Positions 33,554-46,578 of a stretch of DNA of 64,000 nt are shown here, in pieces. The stretch lies in contig JAFRIV010000031.1 of the NCBI GenBank assembly GCA_017432615.1, positions 1 to 64,000 on the forward strand. Reading direction: 5' to 3'. Both the position numbers and the translations under genes were made by a program. The notes under the pieces were generated by a model. That model was given only the letters and a program-made list of their open reading frames with translations, had not been told where the DNA came from and searched no databases. Position 1 is the stretch's first letter. Each line of letters begins with the position of its first letter. Origin of the DNA: Oscillospiraceae bacterium (GTDB lineage: Bacteria; Bacillota; Clostridia; Oscillospirales; Oscillospiraceae).

Positions 33554-33575
33554 TGCCAGGCTGGAGGATCAAAAA

Positions 33576-35603
33576 ATGATGGTTTATTGGGGTTTTGATC
33601 TGGGTGACGGGGAAAGCACTGTTGCCCGTGTTACCGAAGCGCTCAGCACGCCGGAGATTGTTGAAATCGACGGCAGAAAGGTTACCATTACCGTCTGGGC
33701 TGTTATGAAAAACGGAGAGATCCGCATCGGGGAAAATGCGGCCCGTTCCGCTTCTTCCGCCGTACGTTCTGCCGCACGCTTTAAAAGCCGGTTTCTGGAT
33801 GAGCAGTCTGACAGTGCCGGCCTGATCCGCGACTTCTCTTCCCGGATGTTTGAGCTGCTGCGCGCAAGCGGCGATCTCACCGGCGGGGAGAGCAGCAACA
33901 GTGTTTACATCGGCTGTCCGGCCGGATGGGATGCCGAGGCAAGAGGCCGTTATCAGCGTATTTTTGAAACGCTTGGCTTCCCTTCCCCGCGTGTCGTCTC
34001 GGAGTCCCGTGCCGTGATGGTGGGCGCTATCCAGTCCAATTCCGTTCAGGATTATATCGATCTGCGCACACGCTCTGTTCTGGTGGTGGATATCGGTTCC
34101 TCCACAACAGACTTTGCATATATCAACAAAGGCAAAGAAGCGGAGATCCGTACCGGCGGGGAAGTACGTCTGGGCGGAGGGGTAATGGATGAAGTCCTCC
34201 TCAACGCCTGTATCGATGCCTCCCCTGACGCCGCTGCTCTGCGCAAAGTCATGGAAGAAAGTGAGAGCTGGCGTGTTGATTGTGAACTGCACGCACGCCG
34301 TCTTAAAGAGCAGTATTATTCCCTTCCTGCGGAAGAACGTACGGAAGATGCCTGTATCGACCCTCTTCTTGTCGCCTATGACCGTCCCGTTATCCTGAAT
34401 CTGGTCATGAATGAAGCCATGTCCCGCCGCCTGACGGAAAAGCCCTGTCCGCAGCTGGGCGGCAAGAGTTTTCGTGATGTTTTTTGCGCCGGGCTGCAGG
34501 ATGTCCGGGAGAGCATCGGCGAAAATCAGCCTGAGCTTTTGTTCCTGACAGGCGGTGTCTCCCGCATGGAAGAGATTCGCACCTGGTGCCAGTCTGTTTT
34601 CCCGGAAGCCGTCATTTATTCCGATCGGGAACCGGAATTCAGTGTCGCACGGGGGCTTTCCTGGTGCGGCCGGATCGATGCCGAACTGATTCATTTTCGT
34701 GAAGACGTGGACGAGCTGATTACCTCCAGCGCGGTGGAAGCCATAGTTTCCGGTCATCTCCGTGATCTCTATCTCTCTGCGCTCAATGCGCTTCTGGACC
34801 CGCTTATGGAAAAAGCGGTAAAACCGGTACTGCTGGACTGGCAGAACGGGAAGATTGCCACTTTGCACGACATGCAGCTTGCCCTTCATGATCAGATTCG
34901 CATCTATCTCTATTCCGAAGAGGCAAAAGCCGTTTTGTATGAGCCTGTCAGCAACTGGCTCTTCACCGTTTCGGAAGAGTTGGAACAGCGGACCTCCGCC
35001 ATCTGCAGGCGCTATCATATTCCGGAGCGGTCTCTCGGCATCTCATCTGCCCTCTCCGCCAGTGATTTTCACCTTCTGGAAAAGCTCAATGCAAAAGATG
35101 TGCTCTCCGGAGACAGCCTGACCTGGACGGCTGTTTTTGTGGAGTCCATCATCTCGGTTATCATAGCCATGGCCTGCGGAGGCAGCGGTGTCGTGCTGAT
35201 CAGTGAAGGGCCCGTCGGCATGCTGATAGGTTTTCTGCTTTCCTTCCTGGTACTTGCTCTTAGCCATGCCATGGGGAAAAAAGCCCTCGATGAAAAACTG
35301 ATGAATGCCGATCTTCCTCTTCCCCTGCGGCGAATGGTGCTTTCTTCTCCGCTGCCCAAACTCTCTCTTCCGAAGCTCTCTCTGTCGAAGCTCAATCCGT
35401 TCCGGGAAAAGAAAGAAGAAGACCTTTCCGCCCGGCGGATGCGCTCCATCCGGAACAAGATCTTCTCCAACTATGAAAAACTGTTTTCCGAGTCCGAGGA
35501 TCCGGAACTGCTTGCGTTGAATGTCCGTATGAGCCGTGATATCTCTGCCCAGATCGAACAGCGCTTAAAAGAACTCGCCGAGCAGGTGGAAATTCCCCTA
35601 TAA
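33576..35603 (+). CDS. Membrane-anchored Hsp70/actin-fold ATPase
   Basis: 675 aa from ATG 33576. The actin-fold signatures are in order: GFDLGDGESTVARV (phosphate 1), VLVVDIGSSTTDFAYI (phosphate 2) and LLFLTGGVSRMEEI (adenosine). In place of the canonical substrate-binding domain it has a helical region, then two membrane helices (about 520-545 and 550-572), then a short repeat PKLSLPKLSLSKL and a charged coiled-coil tail. This is not DnaK. An assembly or surveillance role at the membrane is possible. Confidence 0.8.
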   Translation: MMVYWGFDLGDGESTVARVTEALSTPEIVEIDGRKVTITVWAVMKNGEIRIGENAARSASSAVRSAARFKSRFLDEQSDSAGLIRDFSSRMFELLRASGDLTGGESSNSVYIGCPAGWDAEARGRYQRIFETLGFPSPRVVSESRAVMVGAIQSNSVQDYIDLRTRSVLVVDIGSSTTDFAYINKGKEAEIRTGGEVRLGGGVMDEVLLNACIDASPDAAALRKVMEESESWRVDCELHARRLKEQYYSLPAEERTEDACIDPLLVAYDRPVILNLVMNEAMSRRLTEKPCPQLGGKSFRDVFCAGLQDVRESIGENQPELLFLTGGVSRMEEIRTWCQSVFPEAVIYSDREPEFSVARGLSWCGRIDAELIHFREDVDELITSSAVEAIVSGHLRDLYLSALNALLDPLMEKAVKPVLLDWQNGKIATLHDMQLALHDQIRIYLYSEEAKAVLYEPVSNWLFTVSEELEQRTSAICRRYHIPERSLGISSALSASDFHLLEKLNAKDVLSGDSLTWTAVFVESIISVIIAMACGGSGVVLISEGPVGMLIGFLLSFLVLALSHAMGKKALDEKLMNADLPLPLRRMVLSSPLPKLSLPKLSLSKLNPFREKKEEDLSARRMRSIRNKIFSNYEKLFSESEDPELLALNVRMSRDISAQIEQRLKELAEQVEIPL

Positions 35604-35679: not shown

Positions 35680-35767
35680 TGGTGGGAGAAGTTGGATTTG
35701 AACCAACGCAGCCTTTCGGCAGCGGATTTACAGTCCGCCCCATTTGACCAGACTCTGGCATTCTCCC
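35680..35767 (-). tRNA. tRNA-Tyr (GTA)
   Basis: Full cloverleaf with a long variable arm, anticodon loop CTGTAAA, acceptor GGGAGAA/TTCTCCC and encoded CCA. Last member of the compact array, only 3 nt from the next. Confidence 0.9.
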
Positions 35768-35770
35768 ATA

Positions 35771-35846
35771 TGGTGGGCTCTCCGGGAATCGAACCTGGGA
35801 CGCGCAGATCTTCAGTCTGCCGCTCTACCAACTGAGCTAAGAACCC
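35771..35846 (-). tRNA. tRNA-Phe (GAA)
   Basis: 76 nt, anticodon loop CTGAAGA, acceptor GGGTTCT/AGAGCCC with one U-G pair, encoded CCA. One A-C mismatch is seen in the T stem. Confidence 0.9.
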
Positions 35847-35849
35847 GTG

Positions 35850-35929
35850 TGGGGTGGGTGACCGGCTTCGAACCGACGACCTCCGGGGCCACCCCCCCCG
35901 GCGCTCTGACCAACTGAGCTACACTCACC
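35850..35929 (-). tRNA. tRNA-His (GTG), aberrant anticodon arm
   Basis: Identity comes from the 8-bp acceptor with G-1 opposite C73 and from GTG at the anticodon position. The anticodon arm contains an uninterrupted run of eight G (35892-35899 as C on the plus strand). This removes U33 and lengthens the arm by about two bases, and an A-C mismatch sits at acceptor pair 4-69. It is either a non-canonical or dead tRNA, or a homopolymer sequencing error. Confidence 0.6.
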
Positions 35930-35932
35930 AGA

Positions 35933-36006
35933 TGGTTGCAGGGGCGGGAGTTGGACCCGCTTTGGGCAGCTTATGAAGCTGTTGCATTACCGTTCTGCCA
36001 CCCTGC
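35933..36006 (-). tRNA. tRNA-Met (CAT)
   Basis: 74 nt, anticodon loop TTCATAA, encoded CCA. The T loop reads TCCAACT instead of the usual TTC start, and acceptor pair 7-66 is mismatched. A CAT anticodon could also be Ile2 after lysidine modification. Confidence 0.75.
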
Positions 36007-36010
36007 AGTA

Positions 36011-36098
36011 TGGTGCACGAAGTGAGACTCGAACTCACAAGCCCTTAGCGGGCACCGGGTCCTTAGCCCGGCGCGTATTCCAGTTCCGCCATTCGTAC
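36011..36098 (-). tRNA. tRNA-Leu (AAG)
   Basis: 88 nt with a long variable arm, anticodon loop CTAAGGA, acceptor GTACGAA/TTCGTGC, encoded CCA. An A34 anticodon for Leu is uncommon in bacteria, which normally use GAG. Confidence 0.82.
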
Positions 36099-36101
36099 AT
36101 G

Positions 36102-36182
36102 TGGCGCGCTCTACAGGGCTCGAACCTGTGACATGCGGATTAACAGTCCGCCGCTCTACCGACTGGACTGAGCTAAGAACGC
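36102..36182 (-). tRNA. tRNA-Asn (GTT) with expanded D loop
   Basis: Anticodon loop CTGTTAA, acceptor GCGTTCT/AGAGCGC, G73 and CCA all fit. The D loop carries an exact 5-base tandem duplication (CAGTCCAGTC), making it 13 nt instead of about 8. Confidence 0.75.
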
Positions 36183-36185
36183 ATG

Positions 36186-36259
36186 TGGCATGGGCCTGTG
36201 GATTTGAACCACAATGACCGGTTTTGGAGACCGGCATACTACCGTTGTATGAGACCCAT
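36186..36259 (-). tRNA. tRNA-Trp (CCA)
   Basis: 74 nt, anticodon loop CTCCAAA, acceptor ATGGGTC/GGCCCAT, G73, encoded CCA. Confidence 0.88.
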
Positions 36260-36262
36260 ATA

Positions 36263-36336
36263 TGGCACCGGATCATGGATTTGAACCATGACCTCCTGAG
36301 TCAGAGTCAGGCGTGCTGCCATTACACCAATCCGGA
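36263..36336 (-). tRNA. tRNA-Gln (CTG)
   Basis: 74 nt, anticodon loop CTCTGAC, acceptor TCCGGAT/ATCCGGT with the first pair open, G73, encoded CCA. Confidence 0.85.
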
Positions 36337-36341
36337 ATATA

Positions 36342-36418
36342 TGGTGATCCCTGCGGGATTTGAACCCGGCATTACCGCCTTGAAAGGGCGGTGACCTATC
36401 CTGTTAGTCGAAGGGACC
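36342..36418 (-). tRNA. tRNA-Glu (TTC)
   Basis: 77 nt, anticodon loop CTTTCAA, acceptor GGTCCCT/AGGGATC, A73, encoded CCA. First tRNA of the minus-strand array. Confidence 0.88.
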
Positions 36419-36421
36419 GTG

Positions 36422-36450
36422 CCAGCCCGATCATTTGGGCTGGTTTTTAT
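36422..36450 (+). terminator. Hairpin with U-tract between tRNA array and XRE gene
   Basis: CCAGCCC/GGGCTGG stem followed by TTTTTATT, readable as a terminator only on the plus strand. It may stop antisense transcription into the XRE gene. On the minus strand the same stem would sit between the XRE gene and the tRNAs without a U-tract. Confidence 0.5.
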
Positions 36451-36461
36451 TATGTGGGGAT

Positions 36462-36704
36462 TCAGATCGTTCCATCGACTTGAAATATCAGGATATCCTC
36501 GATCCTCACCCTGAACACTACTGCAAGGACGACAAGGTTGTCCACGGTCGGCAAAGCCGTGCCGCGCTGCCACTTGTAAATGGCCTGAGGGGTGCTGAAG
36601 CCGAAGATTAACTGGAGATCCTTCACGGTCAGGCCTGCGTTGACTCGCAAGTGTGCGATGTTGATTCCTGTTGCGGTCAAGTCAATGACCGGTATTCGAT
36701 TCAT
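36462..36704 (-). CDS. Small XRE-type helix-turn-helix protein
   Basis: 80 aa from ATG 36704, which follows AGGAG. An HTH occupies about residues 18-70 (AGLTVKDLQLIFGFSTPQAI). No other domain. Its stop lies 44 bp before the tRNA array on the same strand, so the array may be transcribed from its promoter. Candidate regulator of the island. Confidence 0.8.
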   Translation of the reverse strand: MNRIPVIDLTATGINIAHLRVNAGLTVKDLQLIFGFSTPQAIYKWQRGTALPTVDNLVVLAVVFRVRIEDILIFQVDGTI

Positions 36705-37054
36705 TTCATTTACGCTCCTGTTCCGGCCTTGTGGCCTGTGACACATATTGTTTGTAATACATAAAGGCCGCTTGCCTCATACAAGACAAGCGGCCCGTGA
36801 AGTACCTGATTAGCCTATTCTGGCTGTCGTTTCACAGTTCTGTTCTCTGTCTTATATGGGCATGCCAAAGGACCATGCATCTTGTAATTAAAGCTGCACT
36901 GCGAACGACCCTGATATTCGGATTTGAACAAAACGGAGATCTGTCTGAGGATCATTTCTTTTTTCCTTTCCGGGCATAGTCCTGATTTCTGCTTTTACTA
37001 TACCACCCTGTTTCCGAGAAGTAAAGAAACCCGTAGTATAAAATGCACCTGTCG
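36705..37054. other. Intergenic region with hairpin
   Basis: 350 bp without a gene. GGCCGCTTG/CAAGCGGCC (about 36763-36794) with a weak TTTAT tail on the minus strand may terminate the nucleotidyltransferase transcript. The rest is unremarkable. Confidence 0.5.
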
Positions 37055-37807
37055 TTATTGAAGCTGGGACAGAAATAGCCGATCCAGTTCCTCCCACCCA
37101 CGGTTTGCGTCTTCCGACAGCTGAACAATACGGGAGCGTACTTCTTCGATGCTGCTGTCCAGGTAACGGTTGATGCTCTCGATTTTTGGAATGGTTTTGA
37201 TCTCTGGAGCATTCATCTTCAAATTGAGCAGCCGGTCGATATCCGGAAGCAGAGCGGGATCAAGTTCCGTTTCTACCAATTCGGAAAAGAGCATGGGCGG
37301 AGGGGTATCTTTGTCCAGGATCCATCTGCAGGCCAGGACAGGGCGAAGCACATAAAAGTATTTTTTGGCCTTGACCATGTCACCCTTCAGGTATTCGCGG
37401 TAGTTGCTGCTGGCCATGCTGAGGTAGTGGCTCAGCCCACGCTTGGATGAGAAATACCTCTGCATTACAGCACGGAACTCATCTGCAAATGCGTTCTCGC
37501 GATACACGATCGGCGAAGAGAACCACTCAAACAGTGTCGGGTTCGATGCACGCAAAAGGCGCAGCGTTTTGTCCAGATCCCAGCCGTTGATATCCAACTC
37601 TTCCTCGATGGGCAGTTCAATCACGTCTCTGTTCTTTTCCAAACGCAGATAATCCTCTTTAGGACGGACATAGATAAAACGCACGTCGTAGTCACTGTCC
37701 GGAGAGGCAAAGCCCCAGGCACGGCTGCCGGACTCAACTGCCAACAGAATCCTTACGTTTTCCTTCTTTTCAATTTCACTCAGTTTGTATAGAATCGTTT
37801 CCCTCAC
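37055..37807 (-). CDS. YcgL/COG3541-type nucleotidyltransferase
   Basis: 250 aa from GTG 37807 after GGAGG. The polymerase-beta-like site GSRAWGFASPDSDYDVRF (near residue 27) has the GS and the two Asp residues needed for metal-dependent nucleotide transfer. The C-terminal helical domain fits the predicted nucleotidyltransferase family COG3541. Located just downstream of rtcB on the same strand, it could process RNA ends in this RNA-repair island. That role is inferred from context. Confidence 0.85.
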   Translation of the reverse strand: MRETILYKLSEIEKKENVRILLAVESGSRAWGFASPDSDYDVRFIYVRPKEDYLRLEKNRDVIELPIEEELDINGWDLDKTLRLLRASNPTLFEWFSSPIVYRENAFADEFRAVMQRYFSSKRGLSHYLSMASSNYREYLKGDMVKAKKYFYVLRPVLACRWILDKDTPPPMLFSELVETELDPALLPDIDRLLNLKMNAPEIKTIPKIESINRYLDSSIEEVRSRIVQLSEDANRGWEELDRLFLSQLQ

Positions 37808-37952
37808 AGGGCATTTCCTCCTTCCTTAAGTATTCGATGATCATTTCTTTTGCTTTTCCCGTTGCCCGCTTGTCCCGGATAGTGGGAGCGTCAGGTTGAT
37901 TCCCTACAGGCAACCTATCTGCTGGGCATACGCGCTTTTGACCATTGCCACC

Positions 37953-39155
37953 TTACTCCGCTGCCTTGAAGTTATAAACCGGGCGGATTCTCTCGATGAT
38001 GTAGGCAGTGGGGCCAATCTCGGAGACGATCTCATCAATGGGCTTGTATGCCATAGGCGATTCGTCAAGCGTATCGCTCACGACACAGGAAGACCAGATA
38101 CCCTCCATCTCGGCGGTATATTCATCCATCGAGAGCTGGGCGAACGCCTGCTTGCGGCTCATGATGCGTCCGGCGCCATGTGGAGCAGAGCAATTCCATT
38201 CCTCGTTGCCCTTGCCGCTGCAGATGAGGCTGCCGTCACGCATATTGATGGGGATCAGCAGCTTTTCTCCGGCTTCTGCAGAGACAGAACCCTTGCGGAG
38301 GATCATCTTCTCGGTATCAATGTAATTGTGAATCGTAGTAAACTCCTCGACCTTCGTCAGCCCCATGCCGCGCAGGATCACATCGGTCATGGCTTTGCGG
38401 TTGAGCATGGCAAAGTGCTGGGTAATACGCATGTCGTGGATGTAATCTTCAAAAAGCTTTCCCTCTACATAAGCAAGATCCTTGGGGATGCTGATAGGAT
38501 GTTCCCTGCGCAGTTCGTTGATGGCGCTCTGGATATCTTTCCAGCGGCCTGCGGTACGGTATTCGGCAATCAGCTCGTCGATTTGATGACGGGCGCCGCC
38601 CCACATAGCAAAGCGGCCCTGATCCTGGTAGTACTTGCATACCTGAGTGCCGAGATGACGGCTGCCGGAGTGGACGACGAGATACAGTTCGCCGTTCTCT
38701 CCGCGGTCGACTTCGATAAAATGGTTGCCTCCGCCGAGGGTTCCGATGCTGCGCTTTGCCCGCTCAATGGAAACATAGGGCGCACAGCAAAGCTGGTAAA
38801 GATTGATTTCTTCGTTGTACGGATGCTCATCCTTGCGGATATTCTGCCCGCAGGGTATTTCCTTACGGATCAGGGCATCCAAGGCGGCAAAATCTATTTC
38901 CTTCTCCGCAAGACGGACCGTCTCCATTCCGCACCCAATGTCCACGCCAACCATACCGGGAACGATTTTATCCTGAATCGTCATGGTCGTTCCGATGGTG
39001 CAGCCCTTTCCGGCATGCACGTCAGGCATGATGCGGATCTTACAGCCGGCAAAAGCCTCCTGGTCGCAGACGGTCTTGATCTGAAGTTCAGCAGCCGGCT
39101 CGAGTGCAGGTGTATAACAAAGGGCAGTGTTGTGCAGTCCTCGTATTTCTATCAT
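37953..39155 (-). CDS. rtcB: RNA-splicing ligase RtcB
   Basis: 400 aa. All active-site elements are seen: DIGCGMETV (metal Cys, near residue 75), GGGNHFIEV, VHSGSRHLG, and SAPHGAGR (near 324), whose His carries the GMP intermediate. RtcB joins 2',3'-cyclic phosphate or 3'-phosphate ends to 5'-OH ends using GTP, as in tRNA repair. It follows the Ro-like gene after an intercistronic hairpin, a pairing known from other bacterial RNA-repair operons. Confidence 0.95.
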   Translation of the reverse strand: MIEIRGLHNTALCYTPALEPAAELQIKTVCDQEAFAGCKIRIMPDVHAGKGCTIGTTMTIQDKIVPGMVGVDIGCGMETVRLAEKEIDFAALDALIRKEIPCGQNIRKDEHPYNEEINLYQLCCAPYVSIERAKRSIGTLGGGNHFIEVDRGENGELYLVVHSGSRHLGTQVCKYYQDQGRFAMWGGARHQIDELIAEYRTAGRWKDIQSAINELRREHPISIPKDLAYVEGKLFEDYIHDMRITQHFAMLNRKAMTDVILRGMGLTKVEEFTTIHNYIDTEKMILRKGSVSAEAGEKLLIPINMRDGSLICSGKGNEEWNCSAPHGAGRIMSRKQAFAQLSMDEYTAEMEGIWSSCVVSDTLDESPMAYKPIDEIVSEIGPTAYIIERIRPVYNFKAAE

Positions 39156-39177
39156 TTCACTTCTTTCCTTTCAAAAA

Positions 39178-39226
39178 GCGGACGCACGGCGATTCCGTAA
39201 TCAAATCGGATACCGTGCGCCCGCTC
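39178..39226 (-). terminator. Terminator-like hairpin between Ro-like gene and rtcB
   Basis: On the minus strand a long stem (GCG..CGCACGG pairing with CCGTGCG..CGC, with inner CCGAT/ATCGG-type pairs) ends in CTTTTTG. Placed between two operon genes, it probably acts as a partial terminator or RNA-stability element setting the ligase level. Confidence 0.65.
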
Positions 39227-39250
39227 GTCTTTCTCTGGGAGCTGGCAAGC

Positions 39251-40702
39251 TTATGCGGCGATGGGAGCGTACCGCTCCGTATCGATCACGCTCAGCATGA
39301 AGTCGTACGGATTCAGTTCGCCTTCCATGACCATAGAGAAGATCCGGGGACTGTTGCCGGAAACCAGCGCAACACCGCGGCCATTCTCTTTTACAGGCTG
39401 CTGCTCATGACGGCTGTCAACGTTCCAGAACACGAGGTCCGGGAGTTTGTAGCCGGCAGCCGCATAGCTTGCCCTTGCGTTTTCGAAGTTCGTCATGGAC
39501 GAGTTCATCACGCAGTCATCAAACTCCATGTCGGAGATGATATACAGCTTTGCGGGCATCTCAGCCTGAGGGACATGGTTTTCTACCGCCGCCTGCAGAA
39601 TCAGATCGAATACCGCCTCCAGGTTGGTGTTGGCGCATTCGTTGAAGGTTCTGCAGTAGCGCACCTTCTCCACGAAATCTTTTCCCTTGATCTCAACAAG
39701 CCGGGGGCTCATGGAGAAGGCGAGGAAATGATTGTGGAATTTGCCTTTATTATGTTCCGCGAAATAAATCGCGAGAGATTGCGCGACCGCTGCGGGCATC
39801 GGCTTGCTGCCCCAGTACATGGAGCCGGAGCCGTCCGCCACGACAAGTGCGTTCTCATCAGTCGTGAAGTCCTCCAGCGTTCGCCAGGTGACGTCCAGAG
39901 ACCGGCGTTCTTCCTCGGAGCAATCATACGCGTGCTCGACGAGCTCATAGGGCATCAGCGTGCCGGTGTGCAGCTTCTCCTCGCCGCGATCTACCTTATC
40001 CATGAAAGCGCCGTAACGCTCACCGTCATTGCGAAGGAACGCCTTACGGTACTTGAACATGGCCTTGGACGGCTGCTTGGAGTAATCGAACGTGTAGTCC
40101 TTCTCACGGAGATTGTTCTCGATGATCCGGATACACGCGCGAAGCTTGGTCAGCGCCTTGCGGTAGTCACGGTCGGACAGGCCGAAGGACTTAGCAACCA
40201 GCTTGGCCATGACAACCGTTTCCTGATTGGACGCGTTGACGGAAGGCAGCCACTTCCCAAGCAGGGAAATGTCACCGCTGTTCTCCAGTGCGGCAAGATC
40301 CTCCCGGAACTGCTTTTTCAGCAGCGCCATGGCTTCCTTGCAGCAGGGAGTCTTCAGCAATACAAGAACATCATCCCAGCGGCCGTACTCAGCGATATAG
40401 GGCAGGTTCCTCACAACGGAGCCCTTTTCGTTGGATGCAAGCCAGGAAAGGATGCTCCGGAACACGCGGCGCTCGCCAAGGCCGCCACGCACGTCACGGG
40501 CATAGAACAGGATCTTCATAGCCAGATCAGGATTCTCCGCATACGCCTTCAGGAAGCGGTTGCAGATATCCTGCTCGTCTGCACCGCGCAGGGCACCAAT
40601 GGTGGCGAAAAGATCAAGGCAGTCTTTCCCACTGGTGCGATACGTGACTGCACCGTTTTCGGTATAGGTTTTGTTAGCAGTTTTCTTCAGGACTTCCAGC
40701 AC
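39251..40702 (-). CDS. Ro60-like VWA protein (TROVE/DUF2828 type)
   Basis: 483 aa from GTG 40702, eight bases after AAGGAGG. The N-terminal two-thirds is helical repeat, with ARDVRGGLGERRVFR near residue 65, the hallmark of Ro/TROVE-type RNA-binding rings, and YTFDYSKQPSKAMFKYRKAF near 205. The C-terminal third is a VWA domain with a metal-ion site DGSGSM near 290. Ro proteins bind misfolded RNA and Y RNAs. Between the structured-RNA leader and rtcB, a Y-RNA-type partnership is plausible. Family boundary between TROVE and DUF2828 not resolved by eye. Confidence 0.82.
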   Translation of the reverse strand: MLEVLKKTANKTYTENGAVTYRTSGKDCLDLFATIGALRGADEQDICNRFLKAYAENPDLAMKILFYARDVRGGLGERRVFRSILSWLASNEKGSVVRNLPYIAEYGRWDDVLVLLKTPCCKEAMALLKKQFREDLAALENSGDISLLGKWLPSVNASNQETVVMAKLVAKSFGLSDRDYRKALTKLRACIRIIENNLREKDYTFDYSKQPSKAMFKYRKAFLRNDGERYGAFMDKVDRGEEKLHTGTLMPYELVEHAYDCSEEERRSLDVTWRTLEDFTTDENALVVADGSGSMYWGSKPMPAAVAQSLAIYFAEHNKGKFHNHFLAFSMSPRLVEIKGKDFVEKVRYCRTFNECANTNLEAVFDLILQAAVENHVPQAEMPAKLYIISDMEFDDCVMNSSMTNFENARASYAAAGYKLPDLVFWNVDSRHEQQPVKENGRGVALVSGNSPRIFSMVMEGELNPYDFMLSVIDTERYAPIAA

Positions 40703-40840
40703 GGGAAAGACCTCCTTTACAAATGATATAAAACAAGGCACAGTTTGCTGTTTACAGCTTTTTTTGACCGATACATCTTTCTTTTTTCTAATGGGTTGAA
40801 AAGTAAAAAGTGTTGCTGTCTATGCCTTTATTAACTAATC

Positions 40841-40936
40841 AAGGTGTGCCCCTTGGCGGGCTGTGTCCTGCGCACGGCAGGAAGGGTTTGCCAAGCCCTG
40901 ACCTGGACAGATGATTTTGCTGTACACACCTTTTTT
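40841..40936 (+). ncRNA. Candidate Y-like structured RNA
   Basis: Eight-base ends AAGGTGTG (40841-40848) and CACACCTT (40925-40932) pair perfectly and enclose nested stems CTTGGC/GCCAAG (40852-40857 with 40890-40895) and TCCTGC/GCAGGA (40866-40871 with 40877-40882). On the plus strand the RNA ends in TTTTTT, like a terminator. End-to-end pairing and a location beside a Ro-like gene recall Y RNAs. Transcribed strand is uncertain because the stems also form on the minus strand. Confidence 0.5.
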
Positions 40937-41209
40937 ACCAAGTAGTTTTCCCATCTGGTAATTGGCCGGTCCAAAGCACGCTCTTAAGATAATCAGTCTT
41001 GAATAAAAGAAGGTGATTAACATTGCTGTCAGTGCTTTTCATCGGAATATGAAAGGATCTTTATCCCTCAATCTGCGCCGGACTACCAGCCTCATGCGCT
41101 GAGGGGATTTTGCGGTGGCTTCAAGATTCTTTTGCCTCACAAACCGATGCGACCGTTTATAGGGCAAGCCGGGCTTCAGTTGCCCGGGGCCTTTCAAAAA
41201 AGCAAGGCA

Positions 41210-41280
41210 CCATCGAAGCGGGATTCGAACCCGCAGTCGCCGGTTATGAGCCGGCTGCTAAACCATTCAGCTATTCATAA
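41210..41280 (-). ncRNA. tRNA-like RNA with CAT anticodon loop, no CCA
   Basis: Anticodon stem GCCGG/CCGGC with loop CTCATAA, T arm GCGGG-TTCGAAT-CCCGC and a D arm are intact. The acceptor pairs at only about four positions (TTATGAA against TTCGATG), no CCA is encoded, and TTTTTT follows. More likely a tRNA mimic or decayed tRNA than a translating tRNA. Confidence 0.6.
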
Positions 41281-41311
41281 TTGCTGTTAGTGCCTTTCAA
41301 GACACATTTTT

Positions 41312-41384
41312 GAATTCATGCGGGATTCGAACCCGCGCCCCCCTGGTCCGAAACCAGGTGCTCTCCAGTAGAGCTAATGGATTC
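41312..41384 (-). ncRNA. tRNA-like RNA with TCG (Arg) anticodon, no CCA
   Basis: All four arms form: D arm GCTC/GAGC, anticodon stem CCTGG/CCAGG with loop TTTCGGA, T arm GCGGG-TTCGAAT-CCCGC, and an 8-bp acceptor GAATCCAT/ATGAATTC with one mismatch and a G-1:C73 pair reminiscent of tRNA-His. No CCA is encoded, unlike the nine-tRNA array. Confidence 0.65.
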
Positions 41385-41413
41385 TACAGTTTTGCTGTCT
41401 GTGTCTATCATTT

Positions 41414-41488
41414 CAAGATGCCGGTATGGCTCAGCCATCGGTATCGACCGGTTTTACAGTCGACCCTGCTATTCCTCCTTTCCATCTT
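41414..41488 (-). ncRNA. Stem-closed 75-nt RNA module
   Basis: CAAGATG and CATCTTG close a 75-nt unit, tRNA-sized with a 7-bp acceptor-like stem. Inside, CCGGT/ACCGG surrounds the hairpin ATGGC-tga-GCCAT. It does not fold as a cloverleaf by eye. First unit of the array. Confidence 0.4.
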
Positions 41489-41578
41489 GCAAGTTTAAAA
41501 TAGCATCTCGGAAAGGCTTTTTCATGGAAAAAAAGTTGCGAACTCTTCTTTTTCAAAAAAAGTTCGCAATTTTTCTGT

Positions 41579-42493
41579 TTATTTCTGTTCCAATATGGCT
41601 GCTTGGCGTTCAAGCCGGTCTCGAATCTGAGAAACCATGGTCTCGGGTTCGAGCACTTTCAGCACTGGGCCGAATGAAAGGATTCGGATCAGGATCTCCG
41701 TTTCGTCCCCCTGTTTGTAGTTGAGCGTGATGCGGTAGTGTTTGTCTTCGATCCGTTCCGTTTCCTTCTCCAGATCCGTGAAGTGGAGCATTACACGCTC
41801 AAGGGCATTGCGGGTATCAAACAGATCCATGACCAGAGTCTTTTCTCGTTCATTTGGCCGCTGATACTCGCTTTCATCCCAGGGATCGAGCCGATGCACC
41901 GAATCCATACGGGAGAGATTTACGATCAGCGGTTTGCCCCTGAATCCCGTAATCAGCCGAAACTTATCATCCTTCGAAGAGTACTCCAGCTTATAGGGAA
42001 TGCAGATATAGCTTTGCCGGGTGCCGCGATGACCGTGGAAGCGCACGCGCAGCTTTCGCTTCTCATGCATTGCCTGGATAATCGTATGGAAATGCTCAAT
42101 GTAGCGCGAATCAGAAAAATCATCTCCGTTTGAATAACGGTCATAATAGACGATCTGGTCTTGGGTAAAGAGCGGCTCCACATCTTCCAGGCCTTCTTCG
42201 GATGGGGCGAACAGCTGGATCCGCGGGTCAAGCAGGAGCGCCTTAAGCCACTGCTTTTCCAGGGTGGTGAGCGGCAGATGCGGGGAACGGGTCAGAGGAG
42301 TGCCGAAGTTCCGAGTTAGCAGCGGCCAGCTGCCGTCTGTCAGCTTGGCAGGGATAGTGACCAGACTTTCGCCGAAAGCGTTCTCCAATACAGTTCTGGT
42401 TAGTTCCCGCTCAGTCAGGTTGCCTTCGACTGCCTTGGTGAGGATAGCGGATACCGCCTTAAAATACGAACCGTAGATTTCAGAGAAGATCAT
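41579..42493 (-). CDS. WYL-domain regulator, shorter copy
   Basis: 304 aa. The WYL core lies around residues 130-215 (RFHGHRGTRQSYICIPYKLE; DDKFRLITGFRGKPLIVNL), followed by a C-terminal WCX-type extension. No clear N-terminal HTH is visible, so it may act with the adjacent WYL protein, whose stop overlaps its start by four bases. WYL domains sense nucleic-acid or nucleotide ligands. Direct position before the RNA array and the repair genes makes it a candidate damage sensor. Confidence 0.85.
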   Translation of the reverse strand: MIFSEIYGSYFKAVSAILTKAVEGNLTERELTRTVLENAFGESLVTIPAKLTDGSWPLLTRNFGTPLTRSPHLPLTTLEKQWLKALLLDPRIQLFAPSEEGLEDVEPLFTQDQIVYYDRYSNGDDFSDSRYIEHFHTIIQAMHEKRKLRVRFHGHRGTRQSYICIPYKLEYSSKDDKFRLITGFRGKPLIVNLSRMDSVHRLDPWDESEYQRPNEREKTLVMDLFDTRNALERVMLHFTDLEKETERIEDKHYRITLNYKQGDETEILIRILSFGPVLKVLEPETMVSQIRDRLERQAAILEQK

Positions 42494-43725
42494 GTTTTCT
42501 CCCCTCCCCGATACATCTCGGCCATGCGCCGCACATCCCCGTAGAACCGGTCGACAGCGAACTTGTTGTCGCTCTCAAAGCAGATCACCCGACCGATGAA
42601 ACTGCGTGCCCAGGTCAGCAGCTCTCCGGCATCATAAACGTCAGCAACGAACTTGTACGTATGCTCGTCGAGCATTTCGATCTGCCCGTGCCGCTTCTCA
42701 CGCTCCAGCCGGTCAATGATATAGCCTTCTTCATCGCCCACATGCAGCGTGAGTTCCACGTGGTCAACACTGTAGTCGCCTCCGGTGGAAACACCCCAGA
42801 GGTTTTCATCGAACTTGTCTGCAAAGCCCTCGTATTTTTCATGTCGCGATTCGACCGGGCCAGGCGTAATAGCGCGGATATTATCAAGTCGAAAAAACAT
42901 CGGCTTACGGAACTTGTAGTGGAAGGCAAGCAGATATTCCCGTCCGGTCTGTGTGCTGATATAAAAACGCAGCGGATAGACCCTGTGCTCATGTTCTTCG
43001 TCTTTGCGGACGCTGAAATTGACGATATCGATGCAGCGTTTTTCCTTCATGGCGCAGAGTGCATCATACAGGATCTGCGTATCCAGTGTATGGAGCAGAT
43101 AGTGGTGCTTATAGCTGAAATGCTCAGGAGCCTCAGCCTGCCGGTCAAGCAGATAGGATCCGACCACGCCGAACGGCGCCTCTTCGGAGAAGAAAGCAGT
43201 CGCATCTTCCCAGGAGGGAAGATCGACCTTATCCTCAGCAAGGCGGAAGTACAGAAAACGGCCATGCTTCTCGTCCTGAAGGATCCCCAAATCCGTGTAT
43301 TCTTTCAGCTTTTTGCGAACAGTGGACTCATCGATCTCAAAGGGAGTCTCGGTATGGGAAAGATAGTCTGTCACACCATCGGTGATTTCACCCACGCTGC
43401 GGGCAGCGCCGTCAGCAAGGATATCCAGGATACAGAAATGCAGTACGATATCCTTGTCAGTGAAGCTCTTTGCTTTCCAGGCGTTGTGCAGCGGATTGAA
43501 TGTAACGCTGCGGTTGTCCACGGAGATGAAGACGTTTTTCCCCTCGGCAGTGTGCCGGAAGGCCATATAGCCGCCCAGCCAGCTTTCGATACGGCGGCGC
43601 TCATCATCATAGGAGCGGGCGCTCTTCTTTTTGTAATCCTCACGGCTCTTAAAGCCGTACACATAGAAATCCCGCATGTAGTCGCGGATCTTTTCAAAGC
43701 TCTTGATCAGTTCGCTGTAGGCCAT
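42490..43725 (-). CDS. WYL-domain transcriptional regulator, longer copy
   Basis: 411 aa. An N-terminal winged helix (about 85-160, VGEITDGVTDYLSHT then TVRKKLKEYTDLGIL) is followed by a WYL domain (about 220-300, YPLRFYISTQTGREYLLAFH) and a WCX tail. Good GGAGG ribosome site. With its partner it forms a two-gene unit controlling the downstream RNA-repair genes by inference. Confidence 0.87.
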   Translation of the reverse strand: MAYSELIKSFEKIRDYMRDFYVYGFKSREDYKKKSARSYDDERRRIESWLGGYMAFRHTAEGKNVFISVDNRSVTFNPLHNAWKAKSFTDKDIVLHFCILDILADGAARSVGEITDGVTDYLSHTETPFEIDESTVRKKLKEYTDLGILQDEKHGRFLYFRLAEDKVDLPSWEDATAFFSEEAPFGVVGSYLLDRQAEAPEHFSYKHHYLLHTLDTQILYDALCAMKEKRCIDIVNFSVRKDEEHEHRVYPLRFYISTQTGREYLLAFHYKFRKPMFFRLDNIRAITPGPVESRHEKYEGFADKFDENLWGVSTGGDYSVDHVELTLHVGDEEGYIIDRLEREKRHGQIEMLDEHTYKFVADVYDAGELLTWARSFIGRVICFESDNKFAVDRFYGDVRRMAEMYRGGEKT

Positions 43726-43759
43726 GTCTTCACCTCCTTCCGGGAAAACTGTTTCTTTG

Positions 43760-44506
43760 TTATTTCTCTTCTAAAAGGATACGCAGCATCCTGTCCGGGT
43801 TCACCAGGAAGTCTTTTGTTACTTGAAAGTGTTCGGTGTCCTGATACTTCACGTGTTCAAGGCCTTTATCGGAAAACTGAATGATATCCGAATCCGGCAA
43901 TGTGATCAAAATCGGGGAATGGGTGGATATTATGAACTGGGCGCCTTGGGTGGCCAAGTCATGTATCTCGGCCATAAGGCGCAGCATACGCATAGGAGAA
44001 ATGGCAGCCTCAGGTTCATCCAGAATAAATAAGCCGTCTGGAGAGAAACGGTTTTCAACAAGGGCCAGAAAACTCTCCCCATGTGAAAGCTTGTGCAGTG
44101 ACTGCCCTCCGTAGGATCCCAACACTTTGCTGTCCATCGTGTCCAGATACGAAGCGGCGTTGTAGAAGCTTTCAGCCCGAAGAAAAAAACCATCATAGTG
44201 GCGGCCGACGCCTCGCACCAGGTGTATATGTTCATGCAGTGTCGAATGGGAATCAGCAGTCGAGAAGCTGTAGTTTCTTGTTCCGCCTTCCGGATTGAAT
44301 CCTGCAGCAATCGCGACGGCCTCAATCAGTGTCGACTTTCCGATTCCATTCTCCCCGACGAAAAAAGTTATGGGCTTTGAGAGCAGGATGCCTTGTTCCT
44401 GGATGATCTGCTTTATGGCGGGAAGACTCGCAAAGTATTCCGTTTTCGGAATATCTTCATCAATACGGATCTCCCGGATATCCAGTGTATTAAAACTGTC
44501 TGCCAT
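43760..44506 (-). CDS. AAA/ABC-type ATPase
   Basis: 248 aa from ATG 44506. Walker A GENGIGKST, an LSHGESFLALV signature and Walker B LFILDEPEAAISP place it with the small RecF/SMC-like ATPases often found in defence and damage-response loci; FIISTHSPILITLPDSDII is the conserved H-loop region. No long coiled coil, so it is a compact head domain. It lies between a zinc-ribbon gene and the WYL genes on the same strand. Confidence 0.88.
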   Translation of the reverse strand: MADSFNTLDIREIRIDEDIPKTEYFASLPAIKQIIQEQGILLSKPITFFVGENGIGKSTLIEAVAIAAGFNPEGGTRNYSFSTADSHSTLHEHIHLVRGVGRHYDGFFLRAESFYNAASYLDTMDSKVLGSYGGQSLHKLSHGESFLALVENRFSPDGLFILDEPEAAISPMRMLRLMAEIHDLATQGAQFIISTHSPILITLPDSDIIQFSDKGLEHVKYQDTEHFQVTKDFLVNPDRMLRILLEEK

Positions 44507-44511
44507 AATCG

Positions 44512-44745
44512 TCACCAATCTTCATCCAGCAGAGCAGACAGCCCTTCAGCCTCATCTGCCCATGACGGATCATACTTGGATCTGCCCATCACCGACTGGC
44601 AGTCGGGGCAGACCTTATACGGCTTGCTGTATGCGGCACCGCACCGGGAACAGATATATTCATCTGCCTTGAACAAATGCGTCTTCTGAATCCATTGTAC
44701 GGCAACCGGTTCTTTTCCTTTCTTGAAAAGGCCGAATAATCCCAT
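44512..44745 (-). CDS. Small zinc-ribbon protein
   Basis: 77 aa with two CxxC knuckles (CSRCGAAYSKPYKVCPDC), a basic N-terminus and an acidic C-terminus. Size suggests an adaptor or RNA/DNA-binding accessory of the ATPase, whose start lies 5 bp after its stop. First gene after the first copy of the duplicated regulatory region. Confidence 0.75.
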   Translation of the reverse strand: MGLFGLFKKGKEPVAVQWIQKTHLFKADEYICSRCGAAYSKPYKVCPDCQSVMGRSKYDPSWADEAEGLSALLDEDW

Positions 44746-44847
44746 TATTATTCCTTTCCGGCGTGATGGTTCCCTTTACTATCTAGGACCCGGCAGCATT
44801 CTGCCGAAGCATTTCTTCTTCGGCCTGGCAGAATTCATACGAAAGCA

Positions 44848-44936
44848 ATGCAGATGGACGGTCCACGCGGGATATGGATGAACGATGTCTGTCAATGGCT
44901 TATGGTTTCCTCTCTCCGGTATAATAATACCATAGG
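44848..44936 (-). repeat. Duplicated regulatory region, copy 1
   Basis: 89 bp, about 85-90% identical to 46491-46578. Shared parts include TGTCTGTCAATGGCTT (TTGACA on the minus strand), GGTATAATAATACCATAGG and ATGCAGATGG. Lies immediately upstream of the zinc-ribbon/ATPase genes. Confidence 0.8.
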
Positions 44937-44945
44937 GACCGGGTG

Positions 44946-45935
44946 CTACTCCATCAGCTTTTTGAGCATATCATCGCTTATGTTGTAGAAAACTTCATAA
45001 AACTGAGGTCCGTAACGAAAGACCCCGTTTTCCTCCGGCAGCAGCATTTCATACAGCCAATTATATAACGGGTCGGATGCGGCCAGCTGTGGGTATACAC
45101 TTTTGGAGGGCGGGAGCATATATTGGAGTCTCCCTTCCTGCATGCAGAGAGCATATGAAAATTGCGGGTCGGCCATGATTTCCAATAAATCCAGACAGTC
45201 AAGCAGCTTTTCTTCCTGCACATGATTCCCCAGGGAGGCGTAATCGACCATAAAAAGAGGCATCTGATCTTCTTCGTTGTCCGAGAAATTGGCAAAACGC
45301 ACGATGTAATCACCCGGCTCCAGTAAGCGAAGGCTCTCTGTGAAACCAAGCAGATATTTGCATTCGCCCCGGTTAAAGCGCCCGATCCCGTCATATTCCG
45401 CCAGTGTGGATTTGTCAGGGAGCAATTCCTCTCCCATCAGATTCTTCAAATGCGTCAGCACGGCAGACACTTTTTCAGACTCGCCCTGATAGTTGCACAA
45501 TGCCTGCAGGTAGTAGTACATGAGCATCGAACGGAGGGGGATGGCAACGCTGTCATGAAGCTGCATGATGTTCCTTATATTGCGGTCATCCTCTTTGCGG
45601 CAGAAAAGCGTGTTGGCACAGACCATCAGCGGAATGCCGTATGTCTTTTTCTGAACCTTGCTCTTGTCAATGGTCCAGCTGAACATGTCGCCCGTGTCAA
45701 TGATTTCCGGAAGCTGGTGGAGAAAACCTTTGCTCACGAGAGCGCTCATCGCGATGGCATCGTATATAAAGAGATCTCCGTCTCTTCCCGGCAAGCCCTG
45801 GTAGCAGTTCCAGTTAATGAATTTGACAGGGCGCGTATGCCCTGACTCGCGGAATCGCCTTTCCAGTTCCCGACAAAAGTAGTCCGTATCGGTGAAATCA
45901 TAATAGTAATAAATCACGATAGGAGACGACATCAT
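44946..45935 (-). CDS. Thiaminase I-like enzyme, cytoplasmic
   Basis: 329 aa. The periplasmic-binding-protein fold of thiaminase I is recognisable along its length. YGIPLMVCANTLFCRKED contains Cys106 at the catalytic Cys position, LLGFTESLRL has Glu200 at the base position, and the end QYMLPPSKSVYP ... YNWLYEMLLP with GVFRYGPQF also fits. Thiaminase I swaps the thiazole of thiamine for another nucleophile. Known enzymes are secreted; this one has no signal peptide. Self-directed thiamine cleavage, salvage of analogues, or a changed substrate are all possible. Confidence 0.75.
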   Translation of the reverse strand: MMSSPIVIYYYYDFTDTDYFCRELERRFRESGHTRPVKFINWNCYQGLPGRDGDLFIYDAIAMSALVSKGFLHQLPEIIDTGDMFSWTIDKSKVQKKTYGIPLMVCANTLFCRKEDDRNIRNIMQLHDSVAIPLRSMLMYYYLQALCNYQGESEKVSAVLTHLKNLMGEELLPDKSTLAEYDGIGRFNRGECKYLLGFTESLRLLEPGDYIVRFANFSDNEEDQMPLFMVDYASLGNHVQEEKLLDCLDLLEIMADPQFSYALCMQEGRLQYMLPPSKSVYPQLAASDPLYNWLYEMLLPEENGVFRYGPQFYEVFYNISDDMLKKLME

Positions 45936-45945
45936 GTTTCAGCCT

Positions 45946-46071
45946 TTATTGTTTTTTGCAGAATTTGTGGCAGCATCTGCCCTTCGGGGGCTTGGGAAGC
46001 GGTTCACCCTTGATTGCGGCATTGGTTTTCCTCCCTTTCCTGTTTTGTTTATTCGGCTTTCCAGAGTCCAT
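45946..46071 (-). CDS. Possible small basic Cys-rich protein
   Basis: 41 codons between the superoxide reductase and thiaminase genes, overlapping the reductase stop region: a Lys/Asn-rich start and a KGRCCHKFCKKQ end that could bind metal. A competing 27-codon frame (46022 to 45939) has a better ribosome site (GGGAGG) and ends next to the thiaminase start. Only one, or neither, is real. Confidence 0.3.
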   Translation of the reverse strand: MDSGKPNKQNRKGRKTNAAIKGEPLPKPPKGRCCHKFCKKQ

Positions 46072-46408
46072 GCAGATTGCAATATTCATAGGCGGCAACG
46101 ACAGTTTCATCCTCTGCAAGGGCAAAGTGAGCAACAGGTTTTTCACCGGGGCGGAGATTCTTCTTCTGATAACCCTGGGTTGTTTCCAAAACGATCCACA
46201 TGATGTAGTGAGCTTCCAGCATCGGATGCTCTGCGGATCCGACTCTCACGGTAACTCTCCTGTCTTCCGTCTCGATGACCGGTACATGTTTTTCCCCGGA
46301 TGCATCCGTCGTGTTGGGCTTCAGTTCAACCCATCCGTCTTCACAGCACCCCAGAGACTTTTCCTGGATCATGACGGTATCGCAGTCACTGCACTTATAG
46401 AATTTCAT
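46049..46408 (-). CDS. Superoxide reductase (desulfoferrodoxin/neelaredoxin)
   Basis: 119 aa. The catalytic iron site His4Cys is formed by EKHVP, HPMLEAHYI and CNLHGLW. The short N-terminal CSDC motif with a later CC suggests a partial or altered desulforedoxin-like centre. Reduces superoxide to peroxide in anaerobes. Being first in the transcription unit under the second copy of the duplicated regulatory region, it links oxidative stress to the RNA-repair island. Confidence 0.88.
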   Translation of the reverse strand: MKFYKCSDCDTVMIQEKSLGCCEDGWVELKPNTTDASGEKHVPVIETEDRRVTVRVGSAEHPMLEAHYIMWIVLETTQGYQKKNLRPGEKPVAHFALAEDETVVAAYEYCNLHGLWKAE

Positions 46409-46490
46409 TTTGCTTGTCCTCCTTTTATTTCTGGTTGTTTGTGGTTACTCTTCGTCTTAGCTGACCGCCAACGACCCGTGTGATAAAGAA

Positions 46491-46578
46491 ATGCAGATGG
46501 GCGGTCCGATTGGGATATGGATAAACGATGTCTGTCAATGGCTTTTGGTTTCCCCTTCCGGTATAATAATACCATAGG
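46491..46578 (-). repeat. Duplicated regulatory region, copy 2
   Basis: 88 bp matching 44848-44936 and lying upstream of the superoxide reductase gene. A possible promoter on the minus strand is TTGAAT about 18 bp before TATTAT, at the palindrome-like GGTATTATTATACC. Confidence 0.8.

Follow-up and report, generated by a model that had tools for sequence, protein, structure and literature searches.

Within 64,000 nucleotides (nt) of DNA from an Oscillospiraceae bacterium (contig JAFRIV010000031.1 of assembly GCA_017432615.1, positions 1 to 64,000; hereafter the window), an array of small RNA modules lies on the minus strand at 41489-40734, between the gene for a WYL-domain protein (WYL2) and the gene for a Ro-like protein. 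Comparison of this array with its bacterial and viral relatives shows that the modules are closed by their own paired ends, with covarying arms and a shared ACAGCAA motif, and some of them contain a hairpin whose loop is that of a tRNA anticodon arm. Matching modules in related genomes keep their scaffold and swap the anticodon, and most arrays in loci with colinear or divergent WYL genes are preceded by a promoter of their own, marked by a conserved element upstream of it. These features have led to the hypothesis that such anticodon-presenting, Y-like RNAs may be decoys that draw off anticodon nucleases, or sensors of them, with repair by RtcB coupled to this role, a proposal whose chances we judge to be about even.

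A structured RNA array had been reported here in an earlier reading made from the letters of the window (the sequence-only reading), which was silent on its content; the array is real and adjoins the Ro-like gene. The frame of a module consists of a 7-nt 5' arm, two unspecified nucleotides, ACAGCAA, a variable core, the matching 7-nt 3' arm and a G. The modules of the window are as follows.

41414..41489, minus strand: module M0, degenerate, with the stem CAAGATG/CATCTTG and no CAGCAA (fold z = -2.98)
41298..41408, minus strand: module M1, ACAGCAA stem, tRNA-like core, loop TTTCGGA (Arg-UCG) (fold z = -2.52)
41203..41297, minus strand: module M2, ACAGCAA stem, tRNA-like core, loop CTCATAA (CAU) (fold z = -2.60)
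40972..41039, minus strand: module M3, ACAGCAA stem, arm AAAGCAC/GTGCTTT, no anticodon hairpin (fold z = -0.34)
40840..40934, minus strand: module M4, ACAGCAA stem, arm AAGGTGT/ACACCTT, no anticodon hairpin (fold z = -0.71)
40734..40829, minus strand: module M5, whose ends AAGGCATAG/CTGTGCCTT pair (by eye and by fold, z = -2.87) and which stops just before the ribosome-binding site of the Ro-like gene

The folding of M3, M4 and the stretch 41192-41044 is no better than that of shuffled sequences; the last of these, on the minus strand between M2 and M3, contains hairpins and no ACAGCAA (fold z -0.8). ARAGORN and Rfam give two tRNA-like matches in the array (41384-41311 and 41280-41210). The possibility that the tRNA-like M1 and M2 are ordinary tRNA genes was rejected, because the acceptor is fused to the closing stem and there is no CCA, as judged by eye for these two and the modules that align with them. 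In tRNA-like modules generally, the acceptor stem runs into the ACAGCAA clamp, and those that were read have no CCA.

The bacterial set consists of 85 loci, namely the window, four loci from sampled genomes, and L014-L093, the best 80 of at least 545 relatives; L003 and L009, which duplicate L014 (genome G030), were left out. Since related sequences were counted separately, the counts are not independent events, and many of the loci come from metagenome assemblies; the results least inflated by relatedness are those from the viral set, the anticodon swaps and the fixed promoter spacing. Over 45 colinear gaps, there are 184 copies of CAGCAA on the strand of the genes and 10 on the opposite one. 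A strict rule, fixed on bacteria, asks that an arm pairing fully with the site's own 5' arm (G-U pairs counted), followed by G, be present ahead of the next ACAGCAA site. By this rule, 229 of 276 bacterial sites have their own paired arm, compared with 91.9 when the arms are shuffled over all sites (maximum 105 in 50 shuffles). Shuffling within each locus leaves 131 of the 276 (maximum 153), a high value because many arms in one locus are alike. There are 28 arm combinations, built from 23 distinct 5' arms (e.g., AAGGCAC/GTGCCTT, AAAGCAC/GTGCTTT, AAGATGC/GCATCTT and AAGACAC/GTGTCTT).

The pairing is also seen in a blind arm test, in which the 3' arm was taken as the last YTTG-type element before the next module. 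Such an element was found for 110 of 156 neighbouring pairs, and the four free positions all paired in 75 of the 110, compared with 15.8 after shuffling (maximum 27 of 2000) and 38.6 after shuffling within loci (maximum 56). When L014-L093 are taken whole, ACAGCAA pairs at 196 of 284 sites on the Ro strand versus 4 of 66 on the opposite strand. Ten other 7-mers pair at 0 to 9% of their sites, or at 0-12% with the opposite strand included, except for GCAGCAA (20 of 117), which is probably a true variant of ACAGCAA. At least one paired module is present in 78 of the 85 loci, with up to eight modules per locus; none was found in L011, L031, L036, L037, L044, L070 and L085, of which at least L011, L031 and L044 have a contig end near the Ro gene.

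Viruses provide a second set, L094-L173, which represents the best 80 of at least 514 relatives and was reduced to 69 distinct loci for the pairing test; the Ro proteins of these loci have ~38-45% identity. With the rule fixed on bacteria, 134 of 253 viral ACAGCAA sites near the Ro gene pair and have the G, versus 17.3 after shuffling (maximum 25 in 50 shuffles), and over whole viral loci the motif pairs at 165 of 422 Ro-strand sites versus 3 of 91 on the other strand. Tblastn at E<=1e-5 found no homologue of the window's WYL1, WYL2 or RtcB in the 80 viral loci, and an RlaP homologue in one (L169). Among 50,697 annotated phage records, 667 carry the Ro protein, some of them being duplicates of one phage. 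Ten of the 667, picked to span hosts, were read, a module being defined as paired arms, the G and a core of less than 130 nt. Nine have modules: the Bacillus phages FADO and 136, Mycobacterium LeBron, E. coli K-12 nataliec, Listeria LMTA-34, Staphylococcus CoN_Ph12, Campylobacter F358, Enterococcus Bop and Aeromonas LAh_8. The Vibrio V07 phage has no convincing module. The modules of several phages follow the Ro gene rather than precede it, and annotated tRNA genes are present in seven of the ten stretches. In addition, there is an annotated RtcB (LMTA-34) or RNA ligase 2 (LAh_8) no more than about 5 kb from the Ro gene. A 7.4-kb record from human faeces, MT837221.1 ("Bacteriophage sp."), encodes a Ro-like protein that is 57% identical to that of the window and closer to the bacterial copies than it is to the other listed phage copies.

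What the modules enclose was assessed by comparing hairpin counts with dinucleotide-preserving shuffles, and anticodon-loop counts with single-base shuffles. Hairpins with 7-nt loops exceed those with other loop sizes in both bacterial and viral cores, a 5-bp stem with a 7-nt loop being present in 142 of 228 bacterial cores (42 after shuffling, maximum 56) and 76 of 128 viral cores (24.5, maximum 34). With T-loops set aside, loops of the form YTNNNRN occur in 68 of the 228 bacterial cores (2.5 after shuffling, maximum 6) and 40 of the 128 viral ones (2.4, maximum 6). The mirrored anticodon pattern occurs 9 times in bacteria, slightly above its dinucleotide shuffles (mean 3.8, maximum 8), and 0 times in viruses. 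Furthermore, loops identical to natural anticodon loops, of which 148 distinct ones were collected from 422 tRNAs outside the modules, stand on 5-bp stems in 45 bacterial cores, against 0.54 expected from 50 shuffles (maximum 2), and in 34 viral cores, against 0.28 (maximum 2 in 50). In bacteria, the anticodons displayed most often are CAU, Lys-UUU and Arg-UCG; in viruses they are Lys-UUU, Pro-UGG, Asn-GUU and Ser-UGA.

T-loop hairpins are present in 64 of the 228 bacterial and 23 of the 128 viral cores. An anticodon-type hairpin occurs without any of the listed T-loop types in 36 bacterial and 31 viral cores, of which 9 and 27, respectively, are no longer than 45 nt. Cores that short hold little beyond the hairpin; among the longer cores, some have a tRNA-like form with T-loops of other types. 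Four types of core were noted: those that look permuted like YrlA (few, assigned by eye), straight tRNA-like cores with an anticodon arm, an anticodon arm alone, and cores with neither.

Anticodon swaps are seen in the module with the AAGACAC arm, which forms one alignable scaffold (mean column identity 73%). In the window this module displays Arg-UCG; Leu-CAG stands in its place in L014 (G030) and L008 (G012), two loci from the window's genus, Ser-GCU does so in L021, and CAU in L016. The module that follows it has CAU in four loci and GAA in L017. An inner stem ATGA/TCAT is found with GCU, UCU, GUA, CUU, UUU and CCU loops across eight loci, and module 1 in the genus has Lys-CUU in G458 versus Arg-UCU in G476 and G012 (by eye). 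Displayed loops in which A replaces U33 (CAGCTAA and CATTTAA) were seen in L021 (6395-6518) and in viral loci L104 and L113; these are possibly uncleavable or tight-binding variants.

The protein encoded beside the array gave no match to the Pfam TROVE model (PF05731) at E<=0.1, nor was there one in genome G000. Its AlphaFold2 model, built with 27 aligned sequences from the window and the fetched loci, has a mean predicted local distance difference test score (pLDDT) of 82.9 and a predicted template-modelling score (pTM) of 0.70. The top PDB matches to the model are the Trove domain 9kop, Ro60 of Thermus phage phiLo (9l5y), Xenopus Ro (1yvr/2i91/1yvp) and Rsr of D. radiodurans (2nvo), with E values of 6e-9 to 2e-6, template-modelling scores by query length of 0.39-0.58, identities of 11-15%, but a root-mean-square deviation of 7.8-13.5 over the aligned length. 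In the VWA/MIDAS motif DGSGSM, the D, S and S are invariant across the 27 sequences. On the strength of this model, the DUF2828/DUF7788 protein is read as having the Ro60 fold, that is, a helical-repeat ring plus a VWA domain with its MIDAS, in a separate sequence family. Its distribution is patchy, with 6 of 60 relatives and 8 of 398 phylum-sample genomes (the window's own counted) having the gene. Genome G145, which also has a typical copy, carries a second one (L182, contig C17) that is 30% identical and has no paired modules in the 3.5 kb examined.

Around the array, the minus strand of the window reads WYL1, WYL2, a gap of ~840 nt, the Ro-like gene, RtcB, RlaP, XRE and nine tRNAs, with four further genes upstream of WYL1.

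42490..43725, minus strand: WYL1, WYL-domain regulator (PF13280, E = 8e-7)
41579..42493, minus strand: WYL2, WYL/WCX-domain partner (PADLOC WYL, E = 1.1e-13; WYL and WCX slightly below the Pfam cut-offs)
39251..40741, minus strand: open reading frame (ORF) of the Ro-like protein, DUF2828 plus DUF7788 (Pfam), likely GTG start at 40702
37953..39155, minus strand: RtcB RNA ligase (PF01139, 213.5 bits)
37055..37807, minus strand: RlaP nucleotidyltransferase (PF10127, 314.6 bits)
36462..36746, minus strand: XRE/HTH_3 regulator (PF01381)
35680..36418, minus strand: nine ordinary tRNA genes, Glu, Gln, Trp, Asn, Leu, Met, Thr, Phe and Tyr (ARAGORN)
43760..44518, minus strand: AAA ATPase, upstream of WYL1
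44512..44745, minus strand: zinc-ribbon ORF of 77 amino acids with CxxC...CxxC, upstream of WYL1
44946..45935, minus strand: thiaminase-like protein (115.7 bits, below the NCBIfam cut-off of 175)
46049..46408, minus strand: desulfoferrodoxin (superoxide reductase), upstream of WYL1

The RtcB of the window contains DIGCGM, GGGNHFIE and SAPHGAGR, which we take to be RtcB motifs. On the opposite strand, an ORF for an Hsp70/actin-like ATPase (33414-35603, plus) ends close to the tRNA cluster.

The sequence-only reading had listed these minus-strand features correctly and had joined all of them into a single 11-kb island. As one unit the stretch was rejected, since homologues of the AAA, thiaminase and superoxide-reductase genes were found at none of 80 genome-contig loci with flanks of up to 7 kb (tblastn E<=1e-5). 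They were likewise missing from the 4.6 kb (G476) and 4.1 kb (G458) upstream of WYL1 in two genomes of the same genus, the zinc-ribbon ORF not being among the genes searched for. Because they are not found with it elsewhere, these three genes are placed outside the unit, and nothing in the analysis points to the link with oxidative stress that had been suggested. What does recur as a unit is the proposed core of RtcB/RlaP, the Ro-like protein and the RNA array, and the order WYL1-WYL2-Ro-RtcB is fully colinear in 20 of the 85 loci, which is beyond chance, with many loci ending at contig ends. Of the 49 loci with 3.5 kb on both sides of the Ro-like gene, both WYL genes are present at 33, an RtcB homologue anywhere in the locus at 27, the WYL pair together with RtcB at 21, RlaP at 10 and XRE anywhere in the locus at 8. 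The idea that WYL proteins replace RtcR holds to the extent that the WYL pair is the regulator conserved beside these genes, no search aimed at RtcR itself having been made. In G044, the DNA downstream of the RtcB/Ro locus (L012, 1909-3760) encodes an AAA ATPase and then an RloB/TOPRIM-like protein, which together may represent an anticodon-nuclease-type defence pair, assigned by eye.

The tie between a tRNA supply and repair, also part of the sequence-only reading, is supported at the level of the genus, separately from the array. WYL1 is present in 5 of 61 genus-sample genomes and RtcB in 10 of the 61, at 12 loci; XRE lies within 5 kb of RtcB at 10 of these 12, and at least three real tRNAs adjoin RtcB at 7. 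The XRE-RtcB loci of G032 (L235) and G470 (L238) have 20 and 17 tRNAs, respectively, and no array; no Ro gene was found in G032, and G470 has no WYL1 in its genome and no Ro gene near RtcB. In both loci there are second XRE copies, and the tRNA genes stand beside or are interleaved with XRE-RtcB. The window's tRNA-Leu (36011-36098, minus strand) has the anticodon AAG, with A34, and recurs beside RtcB in L008, L235 and L238. In bacterial tRNAs, A34 is unusual except in Arg-ACG.

Upstream of the array, two promoter features can be recognised.

41526..41542, minus strand: conserved upstream element TTCGCAACTTTTTTTCC, a probable WYL activator site, its binding presumed
41497..41502, minus strand: -10-like box TATTTT of the array promoter, of the TANNWT type

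Of the 45 colinear gaps, 40 contain the element (regular expression TCGCA[AG][ACT]TTTTTT), as do all 10 divergent gaps and 11 of the 30 others, and it is always on the array strand. Outside the gaps, ~0.96 Mb of locus DNA, searched on both strands, gave 2 matches, and the 80 viral loci gave none. A TANNWT box lies exactly 39 nt downstream of the element start in 38 of 52 elements, versus 0.33 expected. The 5' arm of the first module is matched within 110 nt of the element in 39 of the 52, and at 53-57 nt in 33 of these. Given the element, the -10 box and the spacing of the first arm, module 1 is probably where transcription starts; the window has the degenerate M0 in this first position behind the promoter. 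The notion that the element is merely a terminator for WYL2 was rejected, as it stays with the array in all ten loci with divergent WYL genes. The layout fits an activator acting with a weak -35 box, a role for which the analogy with PafBC makes the WYL pair the obvious candidate. PafBC is described as a WYL heterodimer activated by single-stranded DNA (PMC11804915). G458 has the element a second time, immediately downstream of RtcB (L241, 9466) and ahead of a tRNA-Arg-like gene.

Taken together, the arm pairing, the anticodon loops and their swaps, the Ro fold, the promoter element, the clusters of RtcB, RlaP and tRNA genes, the spread into phages and the patchy distribution support the decoy or sensor reading. 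In this model, the Ro-like ring would bind the ACAGCAA clamp common to the modules, in the way that Ro60/Rsr holds a Y RNA by its basal stem, and would thereby hold a panel of anticodon loops. The displayed loops would be lures or sentinels for anticodon nucleases, whether toxins, phage-triggered defence or incoming effectors. Lures or tRNAs that are cut would carry 2',3'-cyclic phosphate ends, which RtcB would reseal, together with RlaP in some loci, and the WYL pair would sense a damage product and turn on the array promoter, much as PafBC responds to single-stranded DNA. The phage versions of the Ro protein and its modules, which often lie close to phage tRNA genes, would weaken the anticodon-nuclease defence of the host. 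A broader form of the idea, in which a Ro60-type ring with a genomic library of anticodon RNAs would be an immune or counter-immune device against anticodon nucleases in gut Clostridia, where WYL regulation and RtcB repair often accompany it, and in tailed phages, with the anticodon as its diversified specificity element, is put forward tentatively, at slightly under an even chance.

Several observations weigh against the proposal. No anticodon nuclease is tied to the loci, and all of the evidence is comparative and comes from sequence. Neither WYL nor RtcB homologues are present at 9 of the 49 well-flanked loci, and 22 of the 49 have no RtcB. The sites without an arm of their own number 47 of 276 in bacteria and 119 of 253 in viruses, and by the non-T YTNNNRN test most cores lack an anticodon hairpin (160 of 228 in bacteria, 88 of 128 in viruses). 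Within the window itself, strict pairing is seen in three of the six modules (M2, M3 and M4), as M1 pairs at 6 of 7 arm positions, a second CAGCAA interrupts M5, and M0 has no CAGCAA; just two of the six have an anticodon hairpin. Some displayed loops, moreover, have no U33 (CAGCTAA, Ser-GCU, in L021). Finally, there is another known job for a Ro-associated RNA, since YrlA is reported to bind PNPase and redirect RNA decay (PMC8394870).

That job is the basis of the strongest rival, which we nevertheless consider rather unlikely. In a Ro/Y RNA degradation or quality-control particle (RYPER-like), the clamp would tether the RNA, the tRNA-like cores would recruit PNPase or tRNA-modifying enzymes, and the anticodon arms would be functionless leftovers of tRNA capture. 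The Ro60 fold of the protein and the T-loop hairpins counted above in bacterial and viral cores agree with such a particle, as does the resemblance of some modules, by eye, to permuted tRNAs such as YrlA. YrlA is moreover described as binding both Rsr and PNPase (PMC8394870). On the other hand, the 36 bacterial and 31 viral cores with an anticodon-type hairpin and none of the listed T-loops weigh against this explanation; those of 45 nt or less (9 and 27) are too short for a tRNA fold. In addition, anticodons are swapped on a kept scaffold.

A second rival, which seems improbable, makes the modules guides or substrates for repair: the Ro ring and clamp would align cleaved tRNAs to an intact anticodon arm for restoration and resealing by RtcB and RlaP. 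The presence of RtcB at 27 and RlaP at 10 of the 49 well-flanked loci, and of RtcB or RNA ligase 2 annotated no more than about 5 kb from the Ro gene in LMTA-34 and LAh_8, speaks for it; but the remaining 22 bacterial loci have no RtcB within reach, the window's RtcB has no homologue in the 80 viral loci (E<=1e-5), and a loop on an unrelated stem would presumably be a poor template. Very improbable is a cis-acting leader of the Ro-RtcB operon, T-box or attenuator-like, whose tRNA-like parts sense tRNA levels. Its appeal is the position of the array, which immediately precedes the Ro gene and shares its strand, but a locus can hold up to eight self-closed modules, a promoter of their own precedes them, and in several phages they are downstream of the Ro gene. 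That the modules are decaying tRNA genes plus chance repeats, as the absence of CCA from the tRNA-like ones read might suggest, is scarcely credible and, for the closing stem, refuted by the compensatory pairing of the arms and the enrichment of the motif, both seen in two sets independent of each other.

Of known systems, the nearest is Rsr/YrlA, with its rsr-yrlBA-rtcBA operon and RtcR. It has in common with the loci described here a Ro60-fold protein, end-closed RNAs with tRNA-like domains, and RtcB in the operon. Here, however, the Ro protein is of a DUF2828 type missed by the TROVE model, the RNAs form arrays of up to eight paired modules with the ACAGCAA clamp and display anticodon arms, a WYL pair adjoins, and there is no Rfam match to a Y RNA. 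The tRNA-like domain of YrlA presumably has no anticodon arm. Against Rfam 15, the window and nine array loci gave tRNA alone above the gathering score and no curated Y RNA family, and a low-threshold search gave tRNA and otherwise matches far below the gathering scores of their families; this is a weak test, because six TROVE-type loci likewise gave no Y RNA match. TROVE-type loci were also considered as carriers of the same modules and rejected: in L200-L205 (six of seven TROVE genomes, 10 kb each, both strands, with partial TROVE matches), 2 of 17 ACAGCAA sites have an arm, both in L204 and chance-like, and L183-L189 contain a single chance-like GCAGCAA match. The basal stem of YrlA is reported to be bound by Rsr, and its tRNA-like domain, resembling the D, T and acceptor arms, to bind PNPase (PMC8394870). 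The modules have two traits of Y RNAs, in that their 5' and 3' ends would pair as a basal stem (at the DNA level) and they are encoded beside a Ro-family gene. The array is filed, on comparative grounds, as a variant within the Ro/Y RNA kind, with true membership among Y RNAs resting on Ro binding.

PafBC, of the mycobacterial DNA-damage response, is similar in having a WYL pair that acts, here presumably, at a promoter with a conserved upstream element; the difference is that the target here would be an array of RNAs and, in many loci, a repair ligase as well, and that binding to the element is predicted. The RNA repair and tRNA clusters of phages (Pnkp/Rnl1 of T4; RtcB, RlaP and TROVE of jumbo phages) are likewise phage genes that answer anticodon cleavage. 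Here, in contrast, the individual RNAs are small anticodon displays rather than full tRNAs or ligases, and most of the listed phage records are below 200 kb. In some jumbo phages, a ROT/TROVE protein with a tRNA-like partner has previously been noted (PMC7824862). Gp53 of mycobacteriophage LeBron, a "Ro-like RNA binding protein", belongs to the same family and is toxic when overexpressed; the accessible part of that report mentions no RNA partner (PMC13148394), whereas modules were found here in LeBron. No description of such arrays was recognised in the literature searched, though one may exist among older papers.

The roles of bacterial and phage Ro-type proteins and of their RNAs are largely open, and cutting of the anticodon loop is a major weapon between phage and host. 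The module array would extend the Ro/YrlA idea to a whole anticodon panel. If the proposal is true, an anticodon-display library would link Ro RNAs with tRNA cutting and provide a job for a widespread phage family that is often annotated as "hypothetical", and the predicted nuclease partner of each RNA would be readable from its loop.

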